Shown here: piece by piece, positions 3,001 through 60,297 of the stretch | Layout: each line of letters starts with the position of its first letter | How positions within the stretch are numbered: the stretch's first letter is position 1 | Assembly: GCA_026874595.1 (NCBI GenBank) | Contig: CM049313.1 | Span: 65,726,159 to 65,790,158 of the forward strand | Length of the DNA stretch: 64,000 nucleotides | Direction: 5' to 3' | Source: Sipunculus nudus | Lineage: Eukaryota > Annelida > Sipuncula > Golfingiida > Sipunculidae | Made by a program: the position numbers and the translations under genes | Notes under the pieces: model-generated | The model's database searches: none | Told to the model about the DNA's origin: nothing | The model's input: only the letters and a program-made list of their open reading frames with translations

Positions 3001-5320
3001 CAAAAGCACGTTTTGTCTCTTGGTATTCTCTCTCTTTCGCGCGCGCGCCTATTCTGCTCACAGACTGCCAATTCATATCAGTCAGCAACATCTTTGTTTT
3101 GGAAATATCACGATTTATATTTCCTGCATTAAATCTCCGACAGTCTAATATCCCACTGTGTCTTGGAATACGCTAAATTGCGGCCCTTAAACGAGACTAT
3201 TTTATACCCAATTTCTAATAACCTTGGCACTTGACCTAAATTCTGGAATTAATCAAACATTCAACAAAGCCGATAAAAGCTAAAAATACCGAATAGGAAT
3301 AGTAATGATCCACCTAATTAAACACTCGCGAGAATATTGACATTCTTTTTTTATGTTGTGTAAGCTATTGTCGATAGGGAAAATAAATGGGCCCTCCCAG
3401 GTCGGCGTTGTGCATGCGACTGGACATTATAGAGGCCAAGATCCAAGATACGCGATTATTATTATAGGTTTCAGGGTTGTCTTCTCTTATTGCGACTTCA
3501 CGTGTGATCTTTCTCGCTTTTCTTTCCTTGCCGGAAGTTGAGAAACTCGGGCGCAAGTGTACTCGTGACCATGTTTTTGTATGAATTTTCTGTATATCAA
3601 TTGCCTGATTCACAGAGTTTCTAAACATTTCAATGTTTCAATGCGTTTTATCGCGTTTTCTGGACCTGTGCTTTTACGAAATATTCCTAATTATATTTAC
3701 ACATCGCGTCCCTGTCCCCGCTGTCACCCGTTTACTGCGTTCTCAAGCGTTTGGTTGCGGATTTATGCGTTGGCACGCGCTCCGTAAGGTGTTTTGAGGC
3801 AATTACACAATGCGAGCAAAAAAAAAATAAATAAATAATAATAATAAATGAGGCAAAAGGCGAGGAACAACTCTGAAGTGTGGGAACCTCTTTATTTTCT
3901 ACGCACTTAGTGGATTAGTGTTTGTATGATGTCGCAAATTGTCAATGGCGGCAAGGGAATTTAGAATAGGGGGGACTCGACACCTCAACATAGGTATAAA
4001 TAATGGCGTCGTAGTTATAGTTGACCTTATATAGGCCTAAACAACTATAGCATGTAAAAGTTTAGGGAATAAAAAGGTACCGGATGCAAAATCAAGCGCT
4101 GTTTTCTTGGTATTAAGCTTGTAATATTCTATTTCCGTGAATTTTTGGTCGAAATGTTAGGTAGTGAAATAAAGCCAAGATTCCTAGAGTGTGCTTATTT
4201 AATGTGGAGATTTTTGCTCTCAGTAATAATTTTGCTCACAATAAAACATAACGATAACTATGGTACAAAACCATGTTACTGGCGGGCATGGGTTGTAATA
4301 TATTTATTTGTTTTATAGACAACTCTGTATTCCTGAACGTTATAACATGAGCTCTTCGGAAATGGGCCAGTGAAGATTTGATTAGTTGTTAGTGTAGGTC
4401 CGGCTCATGATCTGGATCCAGGAAAGACTTTCAGGAATATTCACAACATTGACATTATATATGCCCGAGTGAGCCTTTGAATATTGGCCAATAAGGGAAA
4501 GAAAAGACGGTACCCCAACCTTAAAAACCGCCCACATGGCGGGGTCCTGCACATCTGGGAATGCATATAATTCTGTTTCAGAGATGTGTTTATATAAAGA
4601 ATAGAAAACGTCAGTCCATATAAGTACATTTAACTAACTTATTCCCAGGAATGGTTAAGTAATGAAGTTTGCATATTCTTTTGAAATGAAACAGGTGATT
4701 GCGTATTCCATCTCTCCTGTGACCAGAGGGGCAAGCCCTGGGATGCTAATAAACGGAAATTACATGTATTGATTTGAACCCAGGAGAGGCCGTGTAACCG
4801 GATCTCAAAAGACGTCATATTCACATAAGATTCAATAGTGACCCTTGCAGGAGAAAGGGCATTTGCTCGGGGGGTTAAGACGTGTCGCGGTTTGCCAGAC
4901 AATGTGTCAAATGCGGGTTTTCCTCATCACAATGAGCCGAGGCAGACGCCGACCAGACATTACCAGCAGGGGCTTCTCTCTTCGGCACAGCTGGGTGTCA
5001 GATTCATCCGCCGTTAAGACGCCGTATCTGGACGACGTATGTCCTCTTAAAGGTCAATGCTAAACTAACAGCAAGTTCTCCGGGGTTCATATTGTAATCT
5101 GGACGTCCCATCATTTGCTGTTTTCATTGGGACACAATTAATGGTTCCGTTTACATATACCGACTGACTAGTTGTTATTGTATATTTTTATATACAGGGA
5201 AATACAAAATTTTGACATTTGATGTGACAAGAACAGAGACATGACCTTTTATATAAAGTTAGGGACTGTATTTCGAGGTCAGGATACAAGAAACAAAGCT
5301 TTGAGTCGTACCAAGTCAGA
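1..5320. other. Gene-free AT-rich intergenic DNA
   Basis: I see no convincing gene on either strand. The open frames here are short (at most 114 codons), overlap one another and carry no recognisable domain. Low-complexity spots are a 13-base C tract at 478-490, a short GC alternation near 3041-3047, and an A-rich AAAT/AAT run near 3820-3848. Confidence 0.6.
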
Positions 5321-7393: not shown

Positions 7394-8518
7394 TCAAATA
7401 TTGGACTCCAATGTGCTGAAGCGAACGCTGTCCTTGAAGTTCCGGCGCCTTGGCTCGGCAACGCAACATGGGAATATACGGTGAAATAACCGTCTGTAGC
7501 CCTCTCGAATTTCCCTCATTCGGATTCCGTAAATAATGGGATCCGTTAGAAATGTTAACATGGGCATAAAGTCGAACAGATAGAACTTCATATCAATCAG
7601 GATCTGTGGAGTTGTGTTGAAGTCCAGATGAGCGGAAATGAAGTGAAACACAAAGTACGGCAGCCAGAACATGACGAGGGTCCCGGAGAGGAGGAGGGTG
7701 GTTATGAACGCTTTATAGTTCTTCTCCGCGTCTGTCTCGCTTCTCCTCACGCTCCGACCGTTTACTAAGCTCACGCACCGCATGGAACTTCCGCCCGATA
7801 GTTTCGGAGTGCGGCGACGATAGAGTACGATTTCACGGTAAATTCGAGCGTATAGACACACGACGAACACGATCATGGCGGCCAAAAAGTAAGAACACAC
7901 CTCAATGGTTTTGTTACTGACCACGCTCGTATACATCACGCAGCCCCCTGACTGCACTTTGACCACCATTGTGATGGCCGGCAAGACGGCTAAGAATAGC
8001 GACACCGCCCAAGTCAGACACACGCAAATTGATACCCTCCTTTTGGTGACTTTAGTGGTGGAAAAGAAAGGTTGGCAGATTGCAAGGTATTGGTTAACAC
8101 CCAGCATGAAAAGCGCTAGCGTGCTGCAGCATAGCGATAAAATGAACGGTGCAAGAACTACCATCAGCACAAATAAACAGTCCAACATGGTGCGTTTCTT
8201 GAAAAGCGGGAATAAAGCAGGACTGTTGTAATACATCCATAATAAAGCTGAGCCGCATATGTCACACGACGCCAAGTTCAGAAGCAGGGTATGGTAGACG
8301 CTCCGGCGTCCCCTGATGTTGGCGATAGCGGCGAGAGAGAGCACGTTAAAGAAGCAACATGATGCTGCTAATATTGAGTACGGGGCTAACCGAAGTCCGA
8401 ACCCCTGTTGTATGGCGGCTTGGTCGCTGGCGTTCATGGCCACTGTCACGTTGGGCACACTCTCGTTAGAATCGTCGACCAACCGTCCACCGGAGTGGAC
8501 GTAGTGTAAAGAAGACAT
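7394..8518 (-). CDS. Orphan class A (rhodopsin-like) G protein-coupled receptor, MECO-like
   Basis: A 374-residue seven-transmembrane receptor predicted at the plasma membrane; the ligand is unknown. The N-terminus has three N-glycosylation sequons (N18, N23, N29). Landmarks: N58 in TM1, LASCD with D86 in TM2, W170 in TM4, FWLP (284-287) in place of CWxP in TM6, DPIIY (326-330) in place of NPxxY in TM7, then an amphipathic helix 8 and a C351-C352 pair suited to palmitoylation. The usual DRY at the end of TM3 reads N142-Q143-Y144. TM5 lacks the canonical proline and TM3 lacks a cysteine at the canonical place. DPxxY plus these absences is known from melanocortin, lysophospholipid and cannabinoid receptors (the MECO group), so I place it near there by inference. 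I chose the ATG at 8518 (AAG before it, A at -3) because further upstream the frame has only GTG codons and then a TAG. The coding part has no intron. Confidence 0.85.
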   Translation of the reverse strand: MSSLHYVHSGGRLVDDSNESVPNVTVAMNASDQAAIQQGFGLRLAPYSILAASCCFFNVLSLAAIANIRGRRSVYHTLLLNLASCDICGSALLWMYYNSPALFPLFKKRTMLDCLFVLMVVLAPFILSLCCSTLALFMLGVNQYLAICQPFFSTTKVTKRRVSICVCLTWAVSLFLAVLPAITMVVKVQSGGCVMYTSVVSNKTIEVCSYFLAAMIVFVVCLYARIYREIVLYRRRTPKLSGGSSMRCVSLVNGRSVRRSETDAEKNYKAFITTLLLSGTLVMFWLPYFVFHFISAHLDFNTTPQILIDMKFYLFDFMPMLTFLTDPIIYGIRMREIREGYRRLFHRIFPCCVAEPRRRNFKDSVRFSTLESNI

Positions 8519-8592
8519 CTTGAAGAAGTCTGCAGGTGGCGCCAGTGACACTCTCAGATAATGCACCACCACCCGCTACTGCGGTCGGGAAA

Positions 8593-13500: not shown

Positions 13501-15269
13501 AAACGTCCTCATTACAAAGCTGACGTATCATATTTCAGTTGCCTCGTTTTATTGTTAGAAGTCAGGATTTATGGGTACACTCGGCTTATCTGCACCTAAG
13601 CAGGCGAGATAATGTCAGTTCTTTTATAACTTAACCTTGATGCTAAATCCATTATAGATTCTCTCGTAAATGACATACATTAGCGCAATTGCATGATAGG
13701 GATAGGGGTTTCCCCTTTCTCCAGCCGTGGAGGGTTCCACTCAGTTTTACCATCCCAGTATAATGAATGTATTTTATTCAATAAAATTGGTGATGCTTTG
13801 ATTCCATTGAAAACAAATCAATGATCGAAATAAAGATCCTAATTTGCTACGGATTTTAAGAAGTCAGGATTTTCCAGTAAAAAAAGGATAACAAACTGAT
13901 GAAGTTAAGATAAATGGAAGAAATAATCGGGATCATATCACAATAAGTATAAGTTGTAACATTAATGCAACAGTTCATAAATTGATAAAAAAAAGTCCAA
14001 CCTGTCTCCAAGTCAATACGTCTTTGCTCGTTCCTAACCGTCCTCCGCATTAAAAAGGTAATTGCTAGGCTGCTTGGAGATTACGTAGACGTGTTCCGTA
14101 TAGCATCTGCTTTCAATTACGATTCGCATTTACTTTTTTATTCCGGTATCGTTGATGGGTAGGGCGTGATATCTTAGGCCATAGGTAAATCATTATGGTC
14201 ATAAAGTCTCTTGCAGCCCGCAGTCGATGAAAATTAACTGAACAAAATAAAAAGAAAACACAAGTTCCATTCCTTGGTTAACGTACGGCGTTCATTTTTA
14301 ATTTTCCGGGAGTTTTGTAGTTTTATGCAAAAATATCTGAGACCACACACATTTCTTAGCACTAATGTGCAAAAATTGTGTTTGTCTGGCGCACTTAAAA
14401 ACCTAGAAGGCCACATGTGTAATTCCCTGGTTTACGCAGTGTATGTAGAAACAGTTTGGTGCATGCAACCAAAATTGGTAAAACCTCCCAACATACCTAT
14501 GGCAGTGCCTCCAGTTATAATACGTCATGCAAACCTGGTTCATTGAGCCCGAAGCTTTTCTTCAACTGAGAGTAAACTGAAAACTCGCCTTTTATGGAGC
14601 ACGTTCATAGAAGTTAGGGTGGTTTTGAATATTTTTAATAATTGGCACGACTGAATGTATTTACATTTAAAATGATATTTTGTATGAATGCTTGCATGGG
14701 AAGCATTTTTTAGTTCTGATTTCTAAATAATGTATAAGGTAACGTATTTGTGTCTTTGAAAGGTTCCATTCTCGCAAGTTATATAAACTCAAAGTCGTTT
14801 CAAAACTTATTTTTTTTAACTTTTGATATGTTTGCCAAAAGCACTCGATGATCATTTTTGCTGTTGCAATTATTTATTATCAATAAAAAGAGGTACCTCA
14901 AAGATTTACAAGTAGAACAAATTTGGGTCAGTGTATACAGTTCCTCATTACAAAATGTACCTGTCAAGGCTTTATCGGCCCAGTGTGTTCCCCTGAGCAA
15001 TTTGTCTTCGTAACAATACCTACGTTGATACATATCAGATATCTGAATAGACCCATTTTACGACGGTTTGTGATTTCGGAAATCTTTCCTTGTCCAGTGT
15101 ACGTAAAATTCAGAATGCACACTTATAACATAGCAGACTTATCGTGTGCTAGCTTTTACCTCATTCACAGTAAAGTACCATGTACAGGCAACGGGGTTAT
15201 CCTTAAAAGAGGACATTTGCCATGCAATGTTTGGCTCACCATCGCTATCACTCTGTAGGATGACAACGT
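8733..15269. other. Gene-free AT-rich intergenic DNA
   Basis: No protein-coding gene is recognised. It contains an AT/GA-rich patch at about 10465-10650 (AT run, then GAGAGA-type purine runs), a G17 tract at 12167-12183 and a C12 tract at 13008-13019. A pair of short GGGGGTC and ACCCCCG sequences at about 9375 and 9468 could pair but is too weak to call. Confidence 0.55.
10465..10650. repeat. AT microsatellite followed by GA-rich low-complexity DNA
   Basis: An ATAT stretch at about 10478-10513 is followed after about 80 bases by an imperfect GAGA stretch (about 10597-10650). The same AT-then-GA arrangement recurs near 48.9 and 49.3 kb. Confidence 0.8.
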
Positions 15270-25990: not shown

Positions 25991-26089
25991 GAGTGCCATT
26001 TTTGTTTGTTTGATGTTATTTTCAGTACGTCATGAGTGCCATTTTTGTTTGCTTGATGTTATTTTCAGTACGTCATGAGTGCCATTTTT
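25991..26089 (+). repeat. 43 bp minisatellite, right part
   Basis: The array resumes at GAGTGCCATTTTTG with units beginning at 26016 and 26059. It is cut again inside a unit after GCCATTTTT, where the next mobile element starts. The missing end of that unit (TTGTTTGTTTGATG) reappears at about 28418, on the far side of the elements. Confidence 0.85.
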
Positions 26090-27100
26090 AGCTCAGCTGA
26101 CTTTCAGTCATGCTGGGCTATACGGTGGGTCTTTGTCCGTCGTCCTTCCGTCTGTCCGTCCGGCCGGCCGTCCGGCCGTTATCAGGGCACAAATCGTAAC
26201 CGTAGGGGCTAGGGCCATAAACCCTATGCAGTCTTAGAGGTTCTAAAAAGATCTCCTTGCAAACCTGAAATTAGGTCACTGCGACCTATATTCTCGAAGT
26301 TATGGGCTGTGTTTGCACCCCGCAGAAATAATTCTTTTAGCCAAAATTTTCATCCCAAACCTTCCATCTTTCACATACAGCTCACCTACCAAGAGGGGAA
26401 GAACCATAATTATTTTGAGGTCACAAGGTCAAAGGTCAAGGTCACAGAACCAACTTCTTTGAAAAGCCTGTGGATGCATTTTAAGCCAAACCTTTCATCC
26501 CAATTCTTTGATCTTTCACATATAGCTCACCTACTCAGTGGGAGAAGAATCCTATAGATGTTGAGGTCACAAGGTCAAAGGTCAGGGTCACAGGATCCAC
26601 TTCTTTGAAAAGGTTGTGGACACATTTCAAGCTAAACTTTTCATTCCAAACCTTTCACCACTGATATCGCTTCTCTGCCAACAGGGGAAAAGACCTGTTG
26701 ATTTTGAGGTCAAAGGTCAAGTTCAAAGTACCCTATTCATGCGTGGAGTCATTTTCAGGCAAACTTTTCAATCTATACTTTCCATCTGTCATATATGGCT
26801 TACCTAACAATAGGGGAAGAAGCTTATTGATGTTGAGTTCAAAAGGTCAAAGGTCAAGGTCATAATATTGTTCTAAATGTTTGTGAACATATTTCAATTG
26901 AAACTGTTCAACCGAAACCTTCTATTTTTCTAATATGCCACGGCTATGCATCCCTGAATGTGATTCAAACTTCATATTTATGGGTCTTTTTGCATGAAGA
27001 AATAACTAATTGATTTTGAGGTCAGCTGCTCAGGAGGTTAAAGGTTGCAGGTCTAAGTTATTCACTCATTGGTTGAAAAGTAATTACACCCGGCCAGATG
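26090..27100 (+). mobile_element. AGCTCAGCTGA-type element with multiplied nuclear-receptor half-sites
   Basis: It starts AGCTCAGCTGACTTTCAGTC, then a GTCCGTC-rich stretch (26137-26180). About 250 bases of its 5' part match 27932 onward. It contains an internal repeat of about 140-146 bp, each copy ending in a run of AGGTCA half-sites: clusters at 26418-26444, 26564-26590, 26707-26719 and 26844-26862. AGGTCACTGCGACCT lies at 26273-26287. Elements with such ends and a GTCCGTC stretch are, to my recollection, common in mollusc genomes. No coding frame is seen. The 3' end is unclear; no matching 3' terminus is seen before 27932. Confidence 0.6.
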
Positions 27101-27931
27101 TAAGTGGTTAGTAGTTACCCATCATTTAGGAAGAATCCAGTTGATATGCGGGCAAAAGGCTAAGGTCATAGGTCAGGGATGTTCACAATAACTTATTTTG
27201 TAGACCATCTCTATTTTTCTTGTACATATAACCATTGGTTATGGTACATCTCACTGTGTGGCTGTAATGGTGAGTGATGCTGGTGACATATGACTCTTTT
27301 GTATCAGCCTGTTAAGTGATAAGGCTGAGTGATAAATACCTCGTTACTGCATAACAAAAACATTGTTGCCAGAATGCTTCAGCCAGGCATTAAGACTGTG
27401 AGAGTATAGTATTAAGGTTTAGCTACTGATTTATAAGATGGAGGGAACATTTTGAAGTTTATTTTATGGAATCATAGCAATAAACTTAGTTTCCTAGATA
27501 TCTGAATATTTTTATATAAATCACCAGATATAAAAGCAAATGTTTGTTCTCATAATATGTGGATGTTTACCTGGATTTAGGATGGCTTTTTTTATTACAA
27601 GATCTTTAGTCATGCTTTCTGCATTTCTTTTCTTTCAGGTTTTGCATTTAACCTACCCTGCTGATCCCATTGAAAAGCAGAGTGATAATAAAAAATATTG
27701 GACTTTCACTTTTTACATTTGCATATCTATAAATCTAATATGAGGGCCTGAAAATGCATTTTGAATTGTTTTGGACATTCATTACTGTAACATCCTTTGG
27801 AGAATTTGCTACAAGTTTGGTCTCTTATTGGAGGATGTGTGATATCAAATGTCAGACTTGTCAGAAATCCATTATGTCTGCCAGTTAGCCACCTTAGAAA
27901 TTCTTTTGTCAGTGCGGTTTCAGTGATTTTT
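27101..27931. other. Sequence between the two AGCTCAGCTGA-type element starts
   Basis: AT-rich with no recognised gene. A strong splice-acceptor-like TTTCTTTTCTTTCAG ends at 27638, followed by an open frame of about 34 codons; there is no donor or homology to support an exon. It may be decayed tail of the first element. Confidence 0.35.
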
Positions 27932-28416
27932 AGCTCAGCTGACTTTTAGTCATGCTGTGCTATTGCGATGGGTCTTTGTCCGTGATCCTTCCGTCTGTCC
28001 GTCCGGCCGTTAGCAGGGCACAAATTGTAACTGTAAGGGCTAGATACATGAATCCTATGCAGTCTTAGAGGTTCTAAAAAGATCTCCTTGCAGATCTGAA
28101 ATTAGGTCACTGTGACCTATATTCTCTGAGTTACGGGGTATGTTTGCACCTCCCAGAATTAATTCTTATAGCCAAAATAATCATCCCAAACCTTACATGT
28201 CAATAGAGGAACAAACCTTTTGATATTTAGGTCTTAGGGTCAAAGGTCAATGTCACAGGACCAGCTTCTTGAAAAAAGTTGCGGATGCATTTAAAGTCAG
28301 ACTTTTCATCCCAAACCTTCCATCTTCCAAGTATGGTCAGATACCATATGGTATACCATCAGGCTTTTAATACAGGTCATGCTGTCAGCTGAGCGTCATG
28401 ACCCATGGGTCACTTG
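27932..28416 (+). mobile_element. Second AGCTCAGCTGA-type element with a perfect palindromic ERE
   Basis: The 5' end AGCTCAGCTGACTTTTAGTC matches 26090. The 3' end contains GTCAGCTGAGCGTCATGACC (28384-28403), giving short inverted termini (AGCTCAGCTGAC against GTCAGCTGAGC). It has a single half-site run (GGGTCA A AGGTCA at about 28237-28249) and AGGTCACTGTGACCT at 28104-28118. It is non-coding. The minisatellite unit interrupted at 26089 resumes just after it, so the two elements together occupy what was one insertion point. Confidence 0.65.
28104..28118. promoter_or_regulatory. Perfect palindromic estrogen response element (IR3)
   Basis: AGGTCA CTG TGACCT is a perfect inverted repeat with a 3-base spacer, the consensus for steroid/estrogen-type nuclear receptors and the reverse complement of the classical vitellogenin site AGGTCACAGTGACCT. 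The related element has the same site with one change (26273-26287). Binding in this organism is untested. Confidence 0.5.
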
Positions 28417-28440
28417 TTGTTTGTTTGATGTTATTTTCAG

Positions 28441-38090: not shown

Positions 38091-38110
38091 CAACTAACTA
38101 AGGTTAGTTG
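38091..38110. repeat. 8 bp inverted repeat (hairpin) in unit 1
   Basis: CAACTAAC and GTTAGTTG are perfect inverted arms with a TAAG spacer. The same hairpin is at 41316-41335 in unit 2. In unit 3 similarity ends inside its right arm. Confidence 0.8.
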
Positions 38111-38289
38111 GGCCTCCCTGCATGTCAAGAGAGAAGATTCTAGGTGTAGTCGTTACGATTTGTGCCCTGTTAACAGATGGCCGCATCTTAAGAGGTCTCA
38201 AAAATAGAGAAAAATATTGGTAACTAGATGTGTCGGAACGACACGAATGCCCCCGCCTTGGGCAAATTAGAAACATTTGTAAAATTTGG

Positions 38290-40052: not shown

Positions 40053-41514
40053 ATCTGATTCATGAAGAGTGCCTTTATTAGTTGTTATTATAACTATTTT
40101 ACAATGCATGTTAAATAAATAAGTTTATATTTTTTCACGTTGTTATGCTGTGCCGGCAAGGTATACTCGCAAAGGGTCAGACGAATCGATAACATTAGCT
40201 TCTACGTGACTGATATAAAAGTGACCTTTGTTGGTAACACTGTCATATTGTGTTGGATGTACCAATGCCTGCCGAATAGCTTTATAAAAGCTGTTAACAG
40301 CCCTTGGCAAGAGCAGGCAATCGTGTTAACTGCGGCACAAATAAACTTTAATGTGTCTCCAGTGTCTGACACAATCATTATTATCCGAAAGCATTATTAG
40401 CGGATATGTGGGTATGGATAATTTGTTATTTTACATAAATTAATTTTTCATGTAAATACAAACATTTGCTACTCAGACTTTGTCAGTAGTCTTTGATAAC
40501 GCATTTCTTTTATCTCTGTTGCAGTAGGTTTAATAATAATAATATTAAAAATCATAAAAGTAATACACCCATTTAAATGCAAATAACGAGCAGAAGACAG
40601 TGATAAGAATGTGTCTCCAGTACGTAAAGTAATAGGCCTAAACTGTTAACAATAGATGACAATTTAGAGCTCTTAAAGAAAATACCAAAAAGGGACAAAG
40701 CTTTCAGCGACACCATTTGCGGTAAGGTTACACCGTCAATTTGCTTATTTGGATATCAACATTGCGACATTGTTAGGGGAATAATGCTAGAACAGCTTTA
40801 TAGGATAAAAACCTGAAATACTAACGCAGAAGAAATACCTCGACTCTCGAGAGAAAACAGCAGACCATTGTTAAGAAATTGGTGCAGCTGCGCAGAAGCT
40901 GAGTGTTTTAGGATTGAACGCTACGTTAATCTACTTCCACTGCAATTTAATGGACCATTTTCCTACGCATGCGCAGAAAAGCAGGATGCCTCGGCCTCGG
41001 TACAGCGATTGCTTGCTGAAGGTTTGTTTAAATTTCAAACTGTCGAATAAAGCGCATTATTCCATTGTCATTTTTGCAACATCTTTTTTGTCTGAATACA
41101 ATGAAAACAAGATTTAAAGCAATTAAAAGACACCGCATCATATCCTGCAATACTTGGTAATTGCTATGGAACATGCATTATTTGCCATACAACAGAAACA
41201 GAATATTTTGAACATGGCAAGCTGCGCTGAGATAACACGAAGTTGAACCGTTTTACCATCTGCAAGAAGCCATTACGGACTGAAAGTAAAGTTTCATTTT
41301 CTTATATGATGATTTCAACTAACTAAGGTTAGTTGGGCCTCCCTGCATGTCAAGAGAGAAGATTCTAGGTGTAGTCGTTACGATTTGTGCCCTGTTAACA
41401 GATGGCCGCATCTTAAGAGGTCTCAAAAATAGAGAAAAATATTGGTAACTAGATGTGTCGGAACGACACGAATGCCCCCGCCTTGGGCAAATTAGAAACA
41501 TTTGTAAAATTTGG

Positions 41515-57526: not shown

Positions 57527-60297
57527 ATCAGACTGATATTATGGAATGCCTTAAGACATTTTTCATTTCAAAATATTAAAAGAAAAGTAGCCATCATGAA
57601 TATGAACTGAAGAGTTATTTTGAGAGTTTACCATTATGTGATAGTAGGTTAGATGAGTCAGAAGCAGAATTGTGTGGAAAACCTATAACATTGAATGAGG
57701 TTCATGCATGTTTGAAATCAATGAAAAATAATAAAACACCTGGAAATGATGGACTTACTAAAGAATTTTACTTAGCATTGTTTAGTGATCTTGGAGAGTG
57801 CCTCATGGACTGTTTAAATGAAAATTATACTTATGGTTCTCTCACAACAACACAAAAACAAGCACTTATAAAGTTAATACCAAAGCCTGGAAAAGATTTA
57901 AAGTATATCAAATCATGGAGACCTATAAGTTTACTTAATGTTGATGTTAAAGTGATAAGTAAAATTCTTGTTCATAGAATAGGGAGGCATCTCCCTAAAT
58001 TGATAAAGCCTGATCAATATGCCTTTATACAAGGAAGATACATCGGGGATCCTATTAGAATTATATGGGATGTGCTTCATTATACTGATGTTGAAAATAT
58101 ACCTGGTATAATGTTTGCAGCGGATTTAGAAGCTGCATTTGACAGTTTAGACCATGAATTTATGTTTGCAGTTTTGAGATATTTTGGATTTGGTGATTCT
58201 TTTATTAAATGGGTTTTGATATTGCATAATAATATTCAAAGCGCTGTTTTGAATAATGGGTATACAACAGGGTATTTTACGTTAGAAAGGGGAACTCGCC
58301 AAGGAGATCCACTTGCAGCGTACTTATTTATCATGGCAATAGAAATATTAGCAATAAAGGTCAGGAATGATGAAAATATACGTGGAATAGTAATCGGAAA
58401 TACTGCAGTTAAGATGTGTATGTTTGCTGATGACACTACCATATTTGTTCAAAACGCAGAATCACTAGGCCAAGCCCTCTTTGTCATGCAGACATTTGAA
58501 TATTATTCTTCATTAAAATTAAATGTAACAAAATCTGAAGCTACTTATATCGGATCTATGAAAAGTAACAGTGTCATGAGTTTATACAATTTGAAGTGGA
58601 TCGATTTAACAAAGGCAGCCATAAAAAATTCTTGGGATATGGTTTTCTTATAATAAAGATATTATATTCAAGGAGAACTTTCAGAGAGTTGAGAATAATC
58701 TCAGAACTAAATTAACAATTTGGAAAACCAGGAATCTTACAATTTATGGCAGGGCAGAAGTTGCCCGTTCACTTGGGCTTTCAAAGGTTTTGTATGTGAC
58801 TAAGATGCTAATACCCCCGACAAAGACTTTGCAAACCTTAAAGAGACTTCTATGTGATTTTATTTGGAATGCCAGAAAACCAAAAGTTAAATACACCACA
58901 ATAATCGGAAAATATGAGCAGGGGGGGGGGGGGGGGTTAAATGTGCCAGATATAGAGAGCAAAATAAGAACCCAGATGATAATGTGGGCCAAGAGATGTC
59001 TTGAGCCACAAGAATCTGTTGTGAAGGAGATGCTAAATTTTAGACTTAGGAGTATCGGAGGTTTAAGATGTATCCGAGGCAACTTTGATATTAATGTGCT
59101 ACCAAAAATATTGCCAAAATTTTATGTGAAAATGTTAAAAACCTGGGCTGACTATGTATCCGTGGAACCACAAACAGAAGATGAAATAATGTATCAATAT
59201 GTATGGAATAACAAATATGTAAAAGTGAATGGTATGTCATTATATAATAAATCTTTAGAAAATCTGGGAATAAATTATGTGAAAGATTTATTAAATACAG
59301 ATGGATCATGGAAAAGTTGGAGTACTTTTCTACAAAACAATAACAGATGTAAATTATTGAGCCATATGTACTGGTTACAACTGAAACATTCAATTCCACA
59401 AAGATGGAAAAATAATATATTGAATAAAGAGATAACAAATGAAAATGTGGAAAAATATATCATTGTGTCTGTGAATGGGATTGAAATACTTGATAATCTG
59501 AAGTCAAGGCATGTTTACTTTACCTACATAAGTAATAAGTGGAAAGTACCTACGACGCAGAAGAGCTGGAATGACATGAATGAAAAGAATAATATTGAAG
59601 TTGAATGGGAATATGTGTATAAGGGAATCTATATGGTAACACTAGATACCTATCTGAGGGAATTCCAATACAAAATTCTAAACAAGTACATACCTCTTAA
59701 TGAACAGTTATATAAATGGAAGATAAGTGAAACAGACAAATGTATATTGTTTCAACTACCAGGAAAGTATAATTCATTTATTTTTTGAATGTATGGTGAG
59801 TAAGAACTTTTATTATAAAATTCAGGCATGGCTACTCGAGTATGAATTGGACCTGCCTAATATATCACTTTCCATTGTATTGTATGGGATTCTACCTGTT
59901 AATGAAAATAATATCCTTTTTAATCAAATTTTATTGTTGTATAAATGTATACTTTACAAACAAAGAGAGGAGAAGGAATCTTCATTATTTTCAGTGTTTA
60001 AATCAAAATTGAAGTATACAGAGAGAATTGAAAGATATATAGCAAATGGCAGAGGATTACTGAGCAAGCATTATGATAAGTGGAGCAAACTAAGAAGTTT
60101 TTTCGATGAATTTAATTAAAGACAATGTGTTTGTAATGTCCTGTGATCAGTCCTGTATCATTGTATTGTGATAATGTTGCTAGTACATTGTATACCTATG
60201 TTGATGATGTTTGAAAAAAAATCGCCTGTGATGAAACAAAACTGTATCACATGAAAAAATTCTGAGGCGAAAAGAAAAAAAAAAAAATAAAAAAAAA
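57527..60297 (+). mobile_element. 5'-truncated L1/Tx1-like LINE
   Basis: A non-LTR retrotransposon remnant of about 2.8 kb. The flanking near-identical sequences ATGCTTTTCTCTTA (57513-57526) and ATGCTTTCTCTTA (60298-60310) act as a target-site duplication, and an A-rich tail (about 60271-60299) precedes the right one. The 5' truncation removes ORF1 and the endonuclease, as expected for target-primed reverse transcription. The body is a broken reverse transcriptase ORF (next entry) followed by a 3' UTR of about 150 bases. Confidence 0.85.
57580..60119 (+). pseudogene. LINE ORF2 remnant: reverse transcriptase and C-terminal zinc-knuckle-like region
   Basis: Segment 1 (57580-58653; first Met at 57670) carries SWRPISLLN, motif A AADLEAAFDSL (Asp 152 counted from that Met), motif B RGTRQGDPLAAYLF and motif C FADDTTIF (Asp 254-255), so the catalytic aspartates are intact. 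A one-base change in the A run at 58623-58628 shifts the frame. Segment 2 (to 59788) continues with IWKTRNLTIYGRAE, FIWNARKPK and LNVPDIESK, all typical of the L1/Tx1 clade thumb region. A second shift near 59745-59760 leads to segment 3 (to 60119), which has a Cys-Cys-His-Cys-like pattern ending HLFFEC. A G16 run inside segment 2 (58921-58936) makes five glycines where the family usually has two. It is non-functional because of truncation and two frameshifts. Confidence 0.85.

Follow-up and report, generated by a model that had tools for sequence, protein, structure and literature searches.

Non-autonomous Helentrons, known as HINEs, are an already known class of mobile element, described in detail for Cg_HINE of Crassostrea gigas and for Pearl (PMC7492417, PMC4067079, PMC5139131). 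In the available parts of these descriptions, HINEs have subterminal inverted repeats, a left microsatellite of the GTCC type, short arrays of 140–180-bp repeats, a palindrome near the right end and a T-rich target that is not duplicated, and the element studied here resembles them in each of these respects. A separate literature concerns the receptors that could read a palindromic motif in such an element. According to the portions of these papers available to us, three mollusc estrogen receptors (ERs) bind estrogen response elements (EREs; PMC2529310), mollusc ESRs are not activated by estrogens (PMC12965858), and ERR, although it binds IR3 sites in vitro with high affinity, favours extended half-sites in vivo (PMC5476932).

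Here we analyse a perfect IR3 palindrome in a stretch of 64,000 nucleotides from Sipunculus nudus (the window), its carrier and its relatives across the host genome. We find that the carrier is a HINE, and that the 15-mer is probably an inherited part of the tandem unit of that element, spread by rolling-circle transposition and not by local chance.

The palindrome and its HINE carrier

A preliminary description of this DNA reported a flawless IR3 site and a related site nearby that differs by one base. Both are present: the exact 15-mer AGGTCACTGTGACCT lies in one HINE copy, termed copy B, and AGGTCACTGCGACCT, one base different, lies in a second, copy A (Table 1). The description also took the palindrome for the reverse complement of the classical vitellogenin ERE, and AGGTCACTGTGACCT does match the core of the ERE probe in the accessible part of PMC2529310, which contains its reverse complement, AGGTCACAGTGACCT. 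With up to two mismatches to the 15-mer allowed, the window holds four matches (two places, each read on both strands), whereas 100 shuffles average 0.07. Throughout the host genome (G000; 1,426,538,692 bases, or 1.43 Gb, in 153 contigs), the exact word was found 5,403 times (2,643 + 2,760) and its reversed control 25 times (13 + 12), and the perfect-arm IR3 AGGTCANNNTGACCT was present at 13,608 places, its reversed control at 93. By an order-2 Markov model derived from 200 kb, about 4 exact words and about 127 perfect-arm IR3 sites would be expected. The genome-wide surplus of IR3 is thus real and more than hundredfold; a chance origin is ruled out by the window shuffles, the reversed-word controls and the Markov expectation. 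Prokaryote genomes, scanned for contaminating host DNA, yielded a single match, in a bacterial assembly, which we take as chance, the expectation there being about two matches by a rough estimate only.

The carrier of AGGTCACTGTGACCT is a HINE, that is, a non-autonomous Helentron. We make this assignment because its anatomy agrees with the descriptions in the available parts of PMC7492417 and PMC4067079; every structural feature that we tested for was found. Copy B is complete: it aligns with the copy at L002 over 505 positions at 94.7% identity with corresponding ends, and 35 of 41 copies cover at least 480 of its 492 columns. In copy A the left end and the repeats were recognised but a right end was not, and six copies match it at 91–96% over about 512 bp. 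Subterminal inverted repeats, GCTCAGCTGA and TCAGCTGAGC, stand at the two ends of copy B. The inverted repeat complementary to the left one forms a strong stem in the left end of copy A (z −7.1); in copy B this complement was judged by eye only. The left-module microsatellite, of the GTCY type, is degenerate in the window and forms clear GTCC runs in L011 and L015. Near the right end, the TGACCCATGGGTCA-type palindrome is intact in copy B and broken in L002, and a single-strand fold of its region is no better than those of shuffled sequences (66 of 200 as good). A short tandem array between the modules is represented by 11 unit-1 matches each in L017 and L014 and by the four unit-2 repeats of copy A. 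No open reading frame of at least 110 amino acids overlaps positions 26085–28418.

Table 1 Features of the two HINE copies and their insertion site (positions in the window)
Feature	Position	Strand	Remark
Uninterrupted 43-bp host units (two)	25991..26076	.	Target before insertion
HINE copy A, left end and repeats	26085..26894	+	Repeats reach 26894
Left subterminal inverted repeat GCTCAGCTGA, copy A	26091..26100	+	
Unit 1, copy A	26198..26356	+	
One-base (CpG) variant AGGTCACTGCGACCT	26273..26287	+	In unit 1 of HINE copy A; usual form of its subfamily
Four unit-2 repeats, copy A	26338..26894	+	AGGTCA direct repeats abundant
HINE copy B, complete	27927..28418	+	Leading T run may be host or element
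Left subterminal inverted repeat GCTCAGCTGA, copy B	27933..27942	+	
Degenerate GTCC/GTCY-type stretch	27974..28009	+	Left module
Unit 1, copy B	28029..28187	+	Repeat of about 156 bp with the IR3 box
Perfect IR3 palindrome AGGTCACTGTGACCT	28104..28118	+	In unit 1 of HINE copy B; subfamily consensus
Unit 2, copy B	28170..28292	+	
Right subterminal inverted repeat TCAGCTGAGC	28385..28394	+	Copy B
14-bp palindrome TGACCCATGGGTCA	28399..28412	+	Near right end of copy B

A T-rich target without duplication was found in the one insertion examined, read against a 43-bp host repeat. Two uninterrupted units of that repeat, at 25991–26033 and 26034–26076, give the target as it was before insertion; the element interrupts a further unit at 26089/28419, between a T and a G, and no target duplication is present. 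It seems that the two copies arrived together as a single block, or else one within the other. The host repeat recurs around the insertion (25129, 25214, 25991–26076 and 28419) and itself contains the HINE target T-run.

Elsewhere in the window, two short, weak unit-1 matches of equal score (38109–38145 and 41334–41370, both on the minus strand; E 6.2e-6) lie 3.2 kb apart, as if within a duplicated stretch. The window also contains a reverse transcriptase of a non-LTR-type element (57670–58653, plus strand; RVT_1, E 2.3e-30) with further reading frames downstream at 58790–60119, one of them lacking a Pfam match, and a single-exon reading frame for a rhodopsin-type GPCR (7394–8572, minus strand; 7tm_1, E 1.6e-21).

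Subfamilies of the repeat units

To place the palindrome within its element, we sampled the genome in twenty 10-kb stretches at fixed intervals on contigs C1–C3, 200 kb in total. A profile seeded with 11 units that had been chosen for the site or its near form (nine from the sample and two from the window) describes a tandem repeat unit of about 156 bp, unit 1, with the IR3 in its conserved box. This bears out the proposal that the site lies in a conserved part of a dispersed element. All nine IR3 sites of the sample fall inside unit 1, five of them at the single locus L017, and unit 1 makes up 4,158 of the 200,000 bases.

Searching with the flanks alone (CTGAAATT-N15-ATATTCTC) returned 5,695 places (control 1). 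Among the 100 matches listed of these 5,695, the intervening 15 bases were the exact palindrome in 7, AGGTCACTGCGACCT in 14 and AGGTCTCTGTTACCC in 13, and GGTCAnnnTGACC was kept in 25, the exact 7 included. The superfamily is mixed at the site, because several forms occur among these listed matches. The flanks of the subfamily to which copy B belongs (GCAGATCTGAAATT-N15-ATATTC) occur at 199 places (control 0), and among the 100 matches listed of these, tallied by eye, 82 carry the perfect palindrome and 2 the CpG form. In the majority sequence of 41 fetched B copies the palindrome is likewise perfect; this sequence and the window copy disagree at 8 of 492 positions. The preliminary description expected a family consensus that carries the site; that expectation holds for subfamily B, whereas the A form and the AGGTCTCTGTTACCC form lack the palindrome. 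Its further suggestion, that transposition seeded receptor sites over the genome, stands for perfect sites, because the B subfamily carries the palindrome and other subfamilies vary: perfect sites number in the thousands, exact and perfect-arm alike, and every one in the sample lies in unit 1.

Copy A belongs elsewhere in the superfamily. Its CpG form, AGGTCACTGCGACCT, occurs at 3,511 places in the genome and in five of six fetched copies of the copy A flank type (L030, L034, L039, L045 and L046; not L047). The description of the copy A site as a relative one base away is therefore correct, but the site is not merely a decayed copy, as it belongs to a subfamily of its own in which the CpG form is usual. 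Might the perfect palindrome of copy B be a CpG decay product of this A form? The CpG form is common and differs from the palindrome by exactly C to T. The window copy, however, has B-type flanks, the listed B matches are TpG-perfect in 82 of 100 and CpG in only 2, and perfect arms also occur in several unrelated units. We consider this origin highly unlikely, and for copy B the tally of the B subfamily rejects it.

Other flank types retain the arms around the spacers CTG, TGG, CCA, TAG and others. Because perfect arms occur in just 10 of 33 units, we infer rather than observe an IR3 ancestral to the unit; in our reading one subfamily would have lost it and another would carry the CpG variant. 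The AGGTCTCTGTTACCC repeat type (L009, L015, L031 and L035–L048) recurs with a spacing of about 335 bp at L009 and L015. At several loci a GGGTCACAGTGACCT type accompanies it at a distance of about 165 bp, a pairing that suggests a two-unit higher-order array.

The second repeat of the element, unit 2, is dense in AGGTCA direct repeats with 0, 1 and 7 bases between them and also contains TCAAGGTCA, which we take to be the extended half-site form of ERR or NR5. In addition to its occurrences in copies A and B, unit 2 was found at L011, L015, L018, L024 and L028. In the 200-kb sample, TCAAGGTCA occurs 34 times, against 2 for the reversed word, and 15 of the 34 lie in unit 2. Single AGGTCA half-sites number 367 against 89 reversed; 269 of the 367 fall outside both profiled units, and other, unclassified sequences contribute to them. 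Comparison of the BIV160/Cg170 satellite with the window, made with two published primers only, gave best matches at chance level, among them one of 15/21 inside unit 1 of copy A.

Host receptors and conservation of the site

The preliminary description presented the palindrome as an estrogen response element, and on this point the host genome does not support it. We recovered 67 exons encoding the zf-C4 (nuclear-receptor DNA-binding) domain and compared the DNA of all 67 with ER; no ER-like DNA-binding domain was among them, the exons that match ER most weakly being covered by a parallel comparison with ERR, although an ER gene might lie in sequence that is missing. The ER P-box, sought with a degenerate pattern, gave no match in the host genome. 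The one NR3 receptor recognised is encoded by an ERR gene (L058 and L070, G000:C3:3600399-3612835), whose best structure match is ERR gamma (E 4.6e-42, against 1.5e-29 for ER). With ERR in the host and no ER found there, the site is better called a 'nuclear-receptor IR3' than an 'estrogen response element'. Further AGGTCA-reading receptors, of the RXR, HNF4, NR2 and NR5 types, are presumably present as well, as judged from our reading of the zf-C4 exons. With none of the 67 exons ER-like, ER may have been lost in the host lineage.

A host receptor, most likely ERR or else another AGGTCA reader, could in principle account for the retention of the IR3, if its binding benefits the element, for example by opening germ-line chromatin, with TCAAGGTCA of unit 2 serving likewise. 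The presence of ERR in the host and its binding to IR3 in vitro (PMC5476932, in the part available) agree with this reading, as does the excess of TCAAGGTCA over its reversed word and its concentration in unit 2. We compared the arms with their surroundings in 33 units, retrieved with a profile in which the site was masked; the 11 site-chosen seeds are among these units, a composition that favours the site. Mean pairwise identity was 0.747 in the arms and 0.499 in the spacer, compared with 0.734 in the other columns of a 57-bp box and 0.548 outside it. The difference between arms and spacer again suits upkeep by a receptor, but the arms are no more conserved than the box around them (P 0.42). 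The same held on a tree of 60 units that was built without the site; loci selected by exact flanks supplied 29 of the 60, a bias towards the box. Changes per column were 0.083 in the arms, 0.147 in the spacer, 0.101 in the box flanks and 0.144 in the rest of the unit, so that the arms are more conserved than the rest of the unit (P 0.0001) but not than the box (P 0.19). Since arms and box behave alike in both tests, it is the box including the palindrome that is conserved, not the palindrome alone, and selection that would keep the palindrome after insertion is not supported by these comparisons.

Substitutions within the B subfamily give figures that point both ways on receptor upkeep. The B copies for this test were picked by the 20 exact bases adjoining the site. 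In the 34 that remained after 7 of the 41 with identity below 0.94 had been dropped, substitutions per base average 0.0059 at the site and 0.0209 in the remaining non-CpG columns (random-column P 0.005); of 344 CpG-free 15-mers, 11 are at least as intact. In all 41 copies the rates are 0.0081 and 0.0355 per base, the site is intact in 37, and 8 of 345 CpG-free 15-mers are as intact. Among the 100 B matches listed, however, the 82 intact sites (36 of 40 fetched copies and 46 of 60 others) represent a level that 78 of 344 CpG-free windows reach, and subfamilies without the palindrome are common, as the frequency of the exact AGGTCTCTGTTACCC form among the listed flank matches attests. Taking these points together, we judge it improbable that a receptor maintains the site.

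Conservation of the whole box would also follow if the segment of about 57 bp served the element itself, in replication, array formation or the binding of an element protein, and its match to a receptor site were coincidental. The lower rates of change in the box flanks and arms than in the rest of the unit point this way, yet the choice of 29 of the 60 units by exact box bases inflates that apparent conservation. HINE descriptions, moreover, assign the signals for transposition to the end modules (PMC4067079, in the part available), and no element protein or origin is known at the box. We regard such a role as possible, if doubtful. Retention of the palindrome for a hairpin in single-stranded transposition intermediates, which Helentrons are thought to use (same paper, same part), appears extremely unlikely: the IR3 strand does fold better than shuffled sequences (z −3.5, 0 of 200), but non-canonical pairs occupy just 2 of 156 complementary cells (7 pairs in 33 units) and compensatory change was not seen. 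A hairpin constraint is thus unsupported, with no sign of paired changes in the 33 units.

A transposon superfamily as a source of candidate receptor sites

The history we favour, that of a palindrome inherited within the HINE unit, would begin with an ancestral unit of about 156 bp whose core contained AGGTCAnnnTGACCT. Multiplication of HINE families and rearrangement of their short arrays would then have dispersed the unit over the genome, and rolling-circle copying, a mode that membership of the family implies, would have spread the palindrome with it. Some subfamilies would thereby have kept the perfect palindrome, one a CpG version a single base off, and one would have lost it. Host receptors that read AGGTCA, ERR first among them, could bind some of the copies, which would make the element a source of ready-made candidate sites. 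The sites are most likely chiefly passengers, open to use by a host receptor. A more far-reaching version, to which we give little credence, is that HINEs built a genome-wide field, with IR3 in unit 1 and half-sites of the ERR/NR5 type in unit 2, that would be retained because ERR or another receptor occupies it in the germ line or embryo to the benefit of the element, some copies having perhaps been co-opted as host enhancers.

If receptors were to bind even a few percent of the 13,608 palindromes, the receptor network of the host would be largely set by one transposon superfamily; a parallel argument has been made for MIR elements and the estrogen receptor in mammals (PMC3478180, in the part available). 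The findings also touch on research into endocrine disruption: scanning this genome for the motif would turn up 'perfect EREs' by the thousand, all of them copies of a transposon sequence rather than evidence of estrogen response. Apparent EREs in an animal in which no estrogen receptor was found are a warning about motif-based ERE claims. At present the locus stands as a well-quantified example of a receptor-type motif within a HINE.

Neither the seeding of IR3 sites by HINEs nor receptor palindromes in HINE repeats were found in the literature searched, which leaves most subscription journals outside it. The available parts of the Cg_HINE and Pearl papers (PMC7492417, PMC4067079, PMC5139131), with which our element was compared by description, make no mention of receptor motifs in the repeats, and in this the Sipunculus element differs from them. 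The ERE probe of PMC2529310 is, in the part available, synthetic, whereas the present palindrome is a transposon copy and a candidate site known from sequence. MIR elements bound by human ER alpha, as far as the accessible part of PMC3478180 describes them, have a half-site in their core and overlap with ER alpha ChIP-seq peaks, whereas the HINE unit has a full palindrome, recognised on sequence grounds alone, in a host in which no ER was found; the two are alike in that a transposon family has spread motifs of the estrogen-receptor type.
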